A stretch of 64,000 nt of DNA from Chelatococcus composti. GTDB taxonomy: Bacteria; Pseudomonadota; Alphaproteobacteria; Rhizobiales; Beijerinckiaceae. The translations under genes were made by a program, and so were the position numbers. The notes under the pieces were generated by a model. It was given only the letters and a program-made list of their open reading frames with translations. It searched no databases and was not told the DNA's origin. Positions 59,100 through 64,000 of this stretch are shown piece by piece (position 1 is the first letter of the stretch; the number at the start of each line of letters is the position of its first letter). The stretch covers positions 248,001-312,000 of the forward strand of contig NZ_JACHEH010000001.1 in assembly GCF_014201415.1 (NCBI RefSeq), written 5' to 3'.

Positions 59100-59672
59100 T
59101 CACAGGCGCCAGAGATCGACCGTGTAGACGACGGCAGGGCCGTCCGCCGCGAGGTGGACGGCCTTTTCATCGACGATGGCCGTGTCTCGCGCCATCAGCG
59201 TCTCTGTGCCGGCATCGCCGGTTACGGCGACACCGTCCTGGGCTGCAATGACGAGCATCAGGTCGCCGAGGCGTGGCAGCGGATGCGGGTTCTCGAGCGT
59301 GACGCGTTGCACATGATGGCGCCAGCGGCCGCGCCGCGTCATGACGTTGAGATCGACGACGGAGCCGTCTGTCAGCAGGCCGCTGACGGCGACATCGCCC
59401 GGAAAGGCATAGGGCGGCGTCGCGGCAGCGATCACGACGCTGCTCCGCCCCTCGAAGGAGAGCGTCAGGGCTTCGCCTTCCAGGAGCGACAGGGTGCGGT
59501 CGATGCCCGGAAACAGCGAGAACGGCCCGTCCGTCGCCACGCGCGCCATGCTCACGCGCCAGTCGAAGGCATCGAGCCCGGCCCCATCGGGGAAGGCGGC
59601 GATCTCGGTGGTCTCGCCGCCGCCGTTCTTCCATGGCATCACGCGATAGTCGGCCGCCCGGAGAATGCGCAT
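59100..59672 (-). CDS. hutD: HutD family protein
   Basis: A 190-residue cupin-like protein. It opens with RVMPWKNGGGETTEIAAFP and continues DAFDWRVSMARVATDGPFSLFPGIDRTL, the HutD signature. HutD accompanies histidine-use operons and is thought to moderate their expression or flux. It is the last gene of the minus-strand unit, five bases after the acyl-CoA dehydrogenase, so that enzyme is embedded in the hut operon. Confidence 0.93.
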   Translation of the reverse strand: MRILRAADYRVMPWKNGGGETTEIAAFPDGAGLDAFDWRVSMARVATDGPFSLFPGIDRTLSLLEGEALTLSFEGRSSVVIAAATPPYAFPGDVAVSGLLTDGSVVDLNVMTRRGRWRHHVQRVTLENPHPLPRLGDLMLVIAAQDGVAVTGDAGTETLMARDTAIVDEKAVHLAADGPAVVYTVDLWRL

Positions 59673-59677
59673 GGGCC

Positions 59678-60817
59678 TTACCCCAGAAGATGGCGCGCGA
59701 TGATGTTGCGCTGGATTTCGGACGAGCCCTCGTAGATGCGGAAGATGCGGCAGTCGCGCACGTAGCGCTCCAGCGGCAACGCCGTGGTGAAGCCATAGCC
59801 GCCGTGGATCTGCAGGGCCTTGTCGGTGACGCGGCCCGCCATCTCCGAGGCGAAGAGCTTGGCCATCGAGGCTTCCATGGAGAAGCGCTCGCCCTGCTCG
59901 CGCTTGCGCGCGGCGGCGAGGCCGAGCTGGCGCGCCGCGGCAATGTCGGTCGCCATGTCGGCGAGCATCCACTGCAGGCCCTGGAAGTGGGCGATGGGCT
60001 CGCCGCCGACCTTGCGCTCCTTCGCCCAGTCGAGGGCCGCGGCGAGAGCGGCTTCCGCGATGCCGACGGCGCAGGCGGCGATCTCGAGCCGGCCAGCGTC
60101 GAGCACCTTGAGGGCGGTGCGGAAGCCTTTGCCTTCCTCGCCGAGGCGGTTTTCCGCCGGCACGAAGCAGTCGAGCGACACCTCGAAGACATGGCCGCCA
60201 CGCAGACCCATGGTCGGCTCGGGTGGCGAGCAGCGCACGCCGCCAGCCTTCGGCTCAACGATGAAGGCCGAGATGCCGCGCGCGCCCGCTGCCATGTCCG
60301 TCTTGGCATAGACGACGATGAAGTCGGCTTCGCCGGCATTGGAGATGAAATGCTTGGTGCCGGTGATGCGGTAGCCGTCGCCCTCGCGCACGGCACGCGT
60401 CGTCATGTCGGCCGGGTTTGAGCCGGCGCCAGGTTCGGTGAGGCCGAAGGCGCCGAGCGTCTTGCCGGCGGCTGCGTCCGGCAGGTAGCGCTGCTGCTGC
60501 TCGGGCGAGCCGCCGATGAGGATGGAGTCGGTGGCCAGCCAGTGGGCCGTGACCATGGAGGCGGTGGAGCCACAGGCTCCCGCGATGGCCGCCACGGCCT
60601 CGAACAGGGCCGTGGCCGGCAGGCCGATGCCGCCGCAGGACTCCGGCAGGTTGAGGCCCATGATGCCCATCTGCGCGAGCCGCGGCAGATGCATGGTGGC
60701 CGAACGCCCCGTGCGATCGATTGCGGCGGCAGCCGGCGCCAGCACGTTGCGGCTGAAGTCGCGCACCGCCTCGACGAGCGCGGCGGCATCCTCGGAAGTC
60801 ATGGTGGGGGCGTTCAC
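59678..60817 (-). CDS. Acyl-CoA dehydrogenase within the hut operon
   Basis: A 379-residue FAD enzyme of full family length. Signatures are LGAFGLTEPGAGSNPADM with GYRITGTKHFISNAGEAD, MGLRGGHVFEVSLD, QIHGGYGFT and the C-terminal YEGSSEIQRNIIARHLLG, whose Glu is the usual alpha-proton base. It forms an alpha,beta double bond in an acyl-CoA. The GTG start (60817) overlaps the CoA-transferase stop by four bases. With hutU and hutD in the same unit, an imidazole acyl-CoA is a plausible substrate. A straight or branched fatty acyl-CoA is the ordinary alternative. Confidence 0.92.
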   Translation of the reverse strand: MNAPTMTSEDAAALVEAVRDFSRNVLAPAAAAIDRTGRSATMHLPRLAQMGIMGLNLPESCGGIGLPATALFEAVAAIAGACGSTASMVTAHWLATDSILIGGSPEQQQRYLPDAAAGKTLGAFGLTEPGAGSNPADMTTRAVREGDGYRITGTKHFISNAGEADFIVVYAKTDMAAGARGISAFIVEPKAGGVRCSPPEPTMGLRGGHVFEVSLDCFVPAENRLGEEGKGFRTALKVLDAGRLEIAACAVGIAEAALAAALDWAKERKVGGEPIAHFQGLQWMLADMATDIAAARQLGLAAARKREQGERFSMEASMAKLFASEMAGRVTDKALQIHGGYGFTTALPLERYVRDCRIFRIYEGSSEIQRNIIARHLLG

Positions 60818-61990: not shown

Positions 61991-63655
61991 TCAGCGAAGG
62001 CTCGGCAGGTTGAGACCGTGCTCCCTGGCGCATTCGATGGCGATCTCGTAGCCGGCGTCGGCATGGCGCATGACGCCCGTGGCCGGGTCGTTCCACAACA
62101 CACGCTCGATGCGCCGTGCCGCCTCGGGCGTACCGTCGCAGACGATGACCATGCCGGCGTGCTGGGAGAAGCCCATGCCGACGCCGCCGCCGTGGTGCAG
62201 CGACACCCAGGTGGCGCCAGAGGCGCAGTTCAGCAGCGCATTGAGAAGCGGCCAGTCGGACACGGCGTCGGAGCCGTCGCGCATCGCCTCGGTCTCGCGG
62301 TTCGGCGATGCGACGGAACCAGAGTCGAGATGGTCGCGGCCGATGACGATGGGGGCCTTGAGCTCACCCTTGGCGACCATCTCGTTGAAGGCGAGGCCGA
62401 GCCGGTGGCGATCGCCGAGGCCCACCCAGCAGATGCGCGCCGGCAGGCCCTGGAACCGGATGCGCTTCTGCGCCATGTCGAGCCAGTTGTGCAGGTGCTT
62501 GTTGTCGGGCAGCAGCTCCTTCACCTTGGCGTCGGTCTTGTAGATGTCCTCCGGGTCGCCGGACAGCGCCGCCCAGCGGAAGGGGCCGATACCGCGGCAG
62601 AACAGCGGGCGGATGTAGGCCGGCACGAAGCCGGGGAAGTCGAAGGCGTCGGCGACGCCTTCCTCAAACGCCATCTGGCGGATGTTGTTGCCATAATCGA
62701 CGGTGGGCACGCCCATCTTGTGGAAGGCGAGCATCGCTCGCACGTGCTCGGCCATGGAGGCCTTGGCGGCCTTCACCACGGCCTTCGGGTCGCTCTCGCG
62801 CTTCGCCTCCCATTCGGCGATCGTCCAGCCCTTGGGCAGGTAGCCGTTGACAGGGTCGTGCGCGGAGGTCTGGTCGGTCACGCAGTCCGGCCGCACGCCG
62901 CGCCTCACGAGCTCCGGCAGGATCTCGGCCGCGTTGCCGAGGAGGGCGACGGAGATGGGCTTCTTGTTGCGGGTAGATTCCTCGATGATGGCGAGCGCCT
63001 CGTCGAGATCCTTGGCCTGCACGTCCACATAGCCGGTGCGCAGGCGGAACTCGATGCTGGAGGGGCGGCATTCGATGGCCATGCAGGAGGCGCCGGCCAT
63101 GACCGCGGCGAGCGGCTGGGCGCCGCCCATGCCGCCGAGGCCGGCAGTCAGGATCCACTTGCCCGACAGATCACCCCCATAGTGGCGGCGCCCCATCTCC
63201 ACGAACGTCTCGTAGGTGCCCTGCACGATGCCCTGCGAGCCGATGTAGATCCACGAGCCGGCCGTCATCTGGCCGTACATCATGAGGCCCTTGCGGTCGA
63301 GCTCGTTGAAGTGCTCCCAGTTGGCCCAGCGCGGTACGAGGTTGGAGTTTGCGATGAGCACGCGCGGCGCGTCGGTGTGAGTGCGGAACACGCCCACCGG
63401 CTTGCCCGACTGGACGAGCAGCGTCTCGTCGGCCTCCAGACTCTTGAGCGCGGCGACGATGCGGTCGAAGCTCTCCCAGTCGCGCGCGGCGCGGCCGATG
63501 CCGCCGTAGACCACGAGCTCGCCGGGCTTCTCGGCCACGTCCGGATCGAGGTTGTTCATCAGCATGCGCAGGGGCGCTTCAGTCAGCCAGCTCTTGGCAT
63601 TCAGCTCGGTGCCGCGCGGGGCGCGAATGACGCGGGCGTTGTCGATGCGGGTCAT
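61991..63655 (-). CDS. hutU: Urocanate hydratase
   Basis: A 554-residue NAD+-containing urocanase that converts urocanate to 4-imidazolone-5-propionate in histidine breakdown. Markers are the NAD site [35 protein letters not shown] and [21 protein letters not shown] with the conserved cysteine. Length is normal (~555). It is 14 bases after hutG on the same strand. Confidence 0.97.
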
Positions 63656-63669
63656 GGCGAGGTCCTCGA

Positions 63670-64000
63670 TCAGGATTTCGAGCGGGCGAAGCCGATGCAG
63701 GCTTCGAGAATGCGGGTGAGGGTGGCGCGCATGGGCGCGGCATGGGCCTCGTCGTAGGCGACGGGCCAGGAAGCCTCGTCTACGGGGCCGACCGGCTCGC
63801 GCATGTAGCCGCGGCAGGCGAGCTCCATCTGGATGGCATGGACCCCGTCCGCGGGCCGGCCGTTGTGGCGGGTGATGAACCCGCCCCGGAAGCGGCCGTT
63901 GACCACGGTGCTGCGGCCGCTCGCCCGGCAGAGCTCGGCCACTGCGGACTCGAGAGCCGGGTCGCAGGTGACGCCGCCGTTGGTGCCGATGTTGAACTCC
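63670..64000 (-). CDS. hutG: N-formylglutamate deformylase, 3' part (cut by window edge)
   Basis: Only the last 109 residues are present; the start lies beyond the right edge. The visible part reads [27 protein letters not shown] and [11 protein letters not shown], all typical of HutG-type N-formylglutamate amidohydrolases (~265 residues). It yields glutamate and formate at the end of the five-step Hut route. The frame is open to the edge, so the gene is probably intact outside. Confidence 0.9.

Follow-up and report, generated by a model that had tools for sequence, protein, structure and literature searches.

A CoA-transferase and acyl-CoA dehydrogenase pair in a hut operon of Chelatococcus composti: a candidate route from imidazole propionate to urocanate

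We analyzed a 64,000-nucleotide stretch of the Chelatococcus composti genome (contig NZ_JACHEH010000001.1, positions 248,001 to 312,000; hereafter the window) that ends within a histidine utilization (hut) operon carrying genes for two acyl-CoA enzymes. The operon lies on the minus strand and reads hutI-hutH-hutG-hutU-family III CoA-transferase-acyl-CoA dehydrogenase-hutD. Urocanate hydratase, hutU, is at 61991..63655 (TIGR01228, 976 bits, cut-off 375). The CoA-transferase, a proposed urocanoyl-CoA:imidazole propionate CoA-transferase, is at 60814..61959, the dehydrogenase, a proposed imidazolepropionyl-CoA dehydrogenase with a GTG start, is at 59678..60817, and the last gene of the operon, a hutD homologue, is at 59100..59672 (PF05962, 187 bits). 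hutG lies partly inside the window (63670..64000) and extends to window-equivalent position 64497. It is complete in the following stretch of the contig (L001 6670-7497; PF05013, 246 bits), where the L001 position plus 57000 gives the window position, and hutH (L001 7494-9044) and hutI (L001 9087-10295) lie upstream of it. A sequence-only reading had given the order hutG, hutU, CoA-transferase, acyl-CoA dehydrogenase, hutD with gaps of 14, 31, -4 and 5 bases, and both order and gaps proved exact from open reading frame coordinates and Pfam and NCBIfam scans. hutH, hutU, hutI and hutG are contiguous, and hutF and hutC, both assigned by homology, adjoin the operon and diverge from it. The hutF homologue is an amidohydrolase with 49-52% identity to annotated formimidoylglutamate deiminases, and the hutC homologue is 50% identical to one annotated hutC. 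All genes of the canonical pathway (HutH, HutU, HutI, HutF, HutG, HutC and HutD) were found in or beside the operon. That pathway is not known to include a CoA-transferase or an acyl-CoA dehydrogenase, whereas the window operon has both built in. An identity of the window HutU as thiourocanate hydratase was ruled out by its score (NF058530, 706.8 bits vs a cut-off of 930).

The CoA-transferase belongs to family III (CaiB/BaiF) by its PF02515 domain (437.8 bits, cut-off 23.3). Its residue D166, which we take to be the catalytic Asp, was conserved in all 11 orthologues that were aligned and matches up with the Asp of YfdE and others. The protein fell below the cut-off of every named NCBIfam equivalog (oxalate, glutarate, mesaconate, carnitine), the best match being CoA:oxalate CoA-transferase at 346.7 of 522 bits. 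The second enzyme has the domains and the fold of an acyl-CoA dehydrogenase: the N-terminal, middle and C-terminal domains (PF02771, PF02770 and PF00441) were all above cut-off, and its AlphaFold model, with a predicted local distance difference test score (pLDDT) of 93.9, matched 4l1f in Foldseek with a template modeling (TM) score of 0.96. A second AlphaFold model had a pLDDT of 80.7. The catalytic-type Glu of the IYEG motif, E363, presumably the catalytic residue of this dehydrogenase, was found in 39 of 39 orthologues. This enzyme also scored below the cut-offs of all named NCBIfam equivalogs (AcrC, GCDH, CaiA and others), with AcrC the nearest (366.6 of 640 bits). Eleven places in the genome match the dehydrogenase, itself counted, and the nearest paralogue is at 48%. 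Two alignment columns are distinctive of the dehydrogenase clade and might hold an imidazolium ring. Column 97 is Asp in 39/39 orthologues and Asp or Glu in 3/25 outgroups, and column 245 is Glu or Asp in 39/39 orthologues and in 0/25 outgroups.

We propose that the two enzymes form a peripheral branch of histidine breakdown, feeding imidazole propionate (dihydrourocanate) into urocanate through a CoA loop, a reading to which we give a probability of roughly three in four. Because the pair adjoins urocanate hydratase, imidazole propionate is the obvious saturated partner. The CoA-transferase would load CoA onto imidazole propionate, and the FAD-dependent dehydrogenase would then convert imidazolepropionyl-CoA to urocanoyl-CoA, its electrons passing to electron transfer flavoprotein (ETF) and on to ETF-quinone oxidoreductase (ETF-QO). 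The transferase would then use urocanoyl-CoA as the CoA donor for the next molecule of imidazole propionate, freeing urocanate for HutU. Since CoA would be recycled in this way, it would be needed in catalytic amount only. Urocanate would also relieve HutC, so that the product of the pathway would induce the operon. Genomic context and chemistry are consistent with this scheme, and it is from them that we infer the substrate, the direction, the CoA loop and the regulation.

The carnitine system CaiA/CaiB comprises the same two enzyme families and has the same recycling of CoA between product and substrate. The window pair scores far below the curated models of that system (CaiA, 167.4 of 540 bits; CaiB, 130.5 of 413 bits), and its gene context is hut, not carnitine. 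In the caffeate reduction system CarA/CarC of Acetobacterium woodii, CarC is among the solved relatives of the window dehydrogenase, and CarA is a CoA-transferase acting between a saturated and an unsaturated aryl acid. That system differs in that it works reductively, belongs to an anaerobe and has a CarA from a different CoA-transferase family. Both systems bear on the possibility that the pair runs in reverse and disposes of electrons by reducing urocanate to imidazole propionate, as CaiA/CaiB do with crotonobetaine. A CoA-transferase with an acyl-CoA dehydrogenase is the CaiAB arrangement too, and the presence of caffeyl-CoA reductase CarC among the solved relatives points the same way. 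We give this direction very little credence: the genome has an ETF-QO gene, which suits an electron feed to quinone; holders of the transferase include organisms known to be aerobic, such as Acetobacter, Paracoccus and Variovorax; and a reductive branch would compete with the HutU of its own operon.

We collected further loci from a GTDB scan, relatives, a family sample, a class sample, the order and the family to which Variovorax ginsengisoli belongs, and plasmids (14 regions analyzed out of 37 plasmid records). A locus was counted as a pair locus if the transferase and a clade dehydrogenase were neighbors on the same strand, and was called hut-linked if hut structural genes were within 10 kb. 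There were 39 pair loci, with identities of 51-100% for the transferase and 52-100% for the dehydrogenase, among them L007 and L154, which are from the same species and have identical transferases. Excluded were L100 in genome G477 (transferase 49%, without a clade dehydrogenase), L011 (whose dehydrogenase is at 34%), L013 (cut by a contig end), and L146, L148 and L149, each without a clade dehydrogenase.

The sequence-only reading had named an adjacency unique to this genome as grounds for abandoning its proposal. The adjacency is not unique: hut linkage of the pair recurs in Alpha- and Betaproteobacteria. Hut linkage was found at 21/39 pair loci, in about five gene orders. These were hutG-U-pair-D (the window, G001, G002 and G428), hutH-(G)-pair-U (G008, G013, Paracoccus alcaliphilus, P. 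aminophilus, Thioclava nitratireducens and Pseudorhodobacter turbinis), LysR-pair beside ABC-hutC-hutH-hutU (nine Comamonadaceae), and one order of its own each in Acetobacter lovaniensis and G082. At 4/39 loci (L006, L012, L141 and L150) only a HutC-like regulator was nearby. Among the matches listed in the GTDB scan, in which loci were chosen by the CoA-transferase alone, 3/10 pair loci were hut-linked, or 5/10 if HutC-like regulators were counted, compared with hut genes near 0/68 control loci, of varying lengths, of other family III CoA-transferases from the same scan. By this comparison, hut linkage of the pair exceeds chance. At least 9/299 genomes of a Comamonadaceae sample hold the transferase; eight of those nine are hut-linked and the ninth is cut by a contig end. 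Holder counts are lower bounds, since the large genome searches scored the first 5, 13 or 6 candidates per genome.

No homologue of enoyl-CoA hydratase or of 3-hydroxyacyl-CoA dehydrogenase was found at 39/39 pair loci with two queries for each, and the same queries at the 68 control loci gave matches at 19 for the hydratase and at 1 for the 3-hydroxyacyl-CoA dehydrogenase. A single desaturation with release of the free acid fits the pair loci because neither homologue is there. This result also bears on whether the two enzymes serve ordinary short-chain acyl-CoA metabolism, with both genes mere passengers in the hut operon. The dehydrogenase has a fold and nearest solved relatives of the butyryl-CoA type, butyryl-CoA dehydrogenases being among them, and the pair loci without hut context (14/39) would also be expected from passengers. 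We consider that explanation very improbable, given that linkage to hut genes or to HutC sites arose independently more than once, that neither of the two additional kinds of beta-oxidation gene queried was found at pair loci, and that there were scores below cut-off for all curated equivalogs.

HutU was present in 30/30 transferase-holding genomes besides the window's own (12/12, 11/11 and 7/7), three of which (those of L011, L013 and G477) are without a confirmed clade dehydrogenase. HutU was also present in G003, which does not hold the transferase. In the class sample, 98/385 genomes had HutU, including all 5 transferase holders, and the association gave a Fisher p of 0.001 with the window genome and 0.004 without it, values that are optimistic given relatedness and the small genomes in that sample. 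A first dehydrogenase tree split 21 orthologues from 26 others at 100/100, and a tree of the 39 orthologues with 8 outgroups supported the clade at 100/99. The hut label needs at least 7 changes, whether gains or losses, on well supported branches of this second tree. G003, of the same genus as the window genome, retains hutI-H-G-U-D, hutF, hutC and the ABC (ATP-binding cassette) genes, and its transferase is gone. A C-terminal remnant of the dehydrogenase in two frames lies between hutU and hutD (L106 9079-9589); a primitive absence of the pair in G003 was rejected because this remnant after hutU indicates loss. The pair is dispensable for keeping the hut operon, since G003 lost it and yet kept hut, and this is what one would expect if its role were that of a peripheral feeder.

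In Pseudomonas, the HutC site has been published as TGTA-N2-TACA, and in vitro urocanate frees HutC from this site (PMC12977541). Two HutC-type sites, TTGTCTANACA, precede hutI in L001 (0.00 expected by shuffling). The outer palindrome of the sites found here is the same as in the Pseudomonas consensus, and the inner bases differ. In three of the 4 loci with only a HutC-like regulator (L012, L141 and L150), the palindrome TGTNTANACA precedes the start of the aligned part of the transferase, by 108, 151 and 118 bases, respectively, and it occurs somewhere in 14/21 hut-linked loci. In the window, a single match to the HutC-type palindrome TTGTCTAGACA (55570..55580, minus strand; 0.01 expected) lies upstream of the genes for an ABC importer, which are on the plus strand and converge on hutD. 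They encode an NMT1-like substrate-binding protein (55645..56598, PF09084), a permease (56837..57613, PF00528) and an ATPase (57610..58395, PF00005). A homologous importer set adjoins hutC-hutH-hutU in Comamonadaceae; a search by locus tag for a histidine importer of Acidovorax gave no match. The importer probably belongs to the HutC regulon, and because of the upstream palindrome and these Comamonadaceae homologues the region at 55570-58395 may import histidine or a relative.

Several observations weigh against the proposed imidazole propionate branch. Neither a hut gene nor a HutC-like neighbor was found at 14/39 pair loci, one of which, G899, is cut by a contig edge 21 bases beyond where its transferase match stops, and TGTNTANACA was not found anywhere in 14/14 of these unlinked loci or in 7/21 hut-linked loci. 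Pairs linked to LysR but not to hut occur in Leisingera and Pseudosulfitobacter. Close relatives inflate the count of 21 hut-linked loci. The baseline for the HutU comparison was the class sample rather than the genomes of the control CoA-transferases, and columns 97 and 245 were compared in the sequence alignment. The tie of the pair to work from 1973 on Comamonas testosteroni, discussed below, is tentative and drawn from the title of a citation. The imidazole propionate route put forward in the sequence-only reading has partial support and is the best reading: the gene context indicates an exit at urocanate, and a single dehydrogenation accords with the lack of hydratase and 3-hydroxyacyl-CoA dehydrogenase homologues. 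The loci without hut context do not fit it.

Relatives of the window transferase adjoin other urocanate-type chemistry. In a quick transferase tree, the 39 sequences and six further ones formed a single group (Shimodaira-Hasegawa-like approximate likelihood-ratio test, 99). The six are from a second hutU/hutH cluster (L100), ammonia-lyase clusters (L148 and L149), a predicted ergothioneine cluster (two copies in L146) and L011. The hut-like cluster at L100 3547-12689 has hutU and hutH homologues, the 49% CoA-transferase, ABC genes and a zinc alcohol dehydrogenase, and no clade dehydrogenase was found in it. On plasmid pAMI4 of Paracoccus aminophilus (L146 2070-18592), a predicted ergothioneine-use cluster, named from NCBIfam models above cut-off (thiourocanate hydratase, ErtD and ErtE), has two CoA-transferases of the window transferase's subfamily beside thiourocanate hydratase and two acyl-CoA dehydrogenases. 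Because those dehydrogenases are distant from the window clade (26% identity; outside the 39), we treat the cluster as an analogy only. At two pair loci (L141 11372-17306 and L147 3043-8743), a common module lies beside the pair, perhaps for other histidine derivatives, and consists of LysR, a Rieske oxygenase (VanA_C type), a 2Fe-2S reductase, a HisC-like aminotransferase and a GlcD-like oxidase, parts of which are also found in L102 and L006.

Such neighborhoods raise the possibility of the same chemistry on a close relative, either imidazole propionate with a methyl, thio or other substituent or a wide range of imidazole acids: the Rieske and aminotransferase module beside the pair would suit a substituted substrate, as would related CoA-transferases within the predicted ergothioneine cluster. 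We regard this as unlikely, in that hutU is of the plain kind, and no such module lies next to the pair, both in the window operon and at the loci of Paracoccus, Thioclava and Comamonadaceae, and the score of the window HutU below the thiourocanate hydratase cut-off (706.8/930) argues against a thio substrate. The clusters at L148 7413-11875 and L149 7460-11860 have a histidine-ammonia-lyase-like enzyme, a related CoA-transferase, a 3-hydroxyacyl-CoA dehydrogenase and an enoyl-CoA hydratase. The ammonia-lyase-like enzyme is under the hutH cut-off with no match to the ASGDL motif, and a CoA-dependent route for an aryl acrylate is possible there. A further possibility is that urocanate (for example, its cis form) or an acrylate like it is activated as a CoA ester to serve some different end, which would accord with the Rhizobium and Sodalis plasmids, on which related CoA-transferases occur with these same kinds of enzymes. 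This is the least probable of the alternatives considered, since the 39 pair loci are without homologues of the hydratase and the 3-hydroxyacyl-CoA dehydrogenase and keep a redox enzyme that would be superfluous for activation alone.

Comamonas testosteroni, then called Pseudomonas, was reportedly studied for imidazolylpropionate degradation by Coote and Hassall in 1973 (cited in PMC3953581). The species belongs to the Comamonadaceae, and the phenotype is one that the pair would explain. Imidazole propionate is a microbial product of histidine linked to diabetes and heart failure, and UrdA is named as its producer (PMC13320830). We found no gene for its consumption in the open-licence literature searched on the subject. 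Enzymes of both kinds are already familiar; what appears new, within the literature searched, is the assignment of genes to this route and the recurrence of that arrangement. More tentatively, at somewhat less than even confidence, we suggest that the pair accounts for imidazole propionate consumption at the level of genes, as a CoA-loop pair within the HutC/urocanate regulon, on chromosomes and plasmids, and within a wider CoA-transferase subfamily for imidazolyl propionates and acrylates, including the thio form from ergothioneine. The pair would supply candidate genes for a biochemical observation made decades ago and could be sought in metagenomes, and a two-gene marker with conserved context makes imidazole propionate degradation directly testable.

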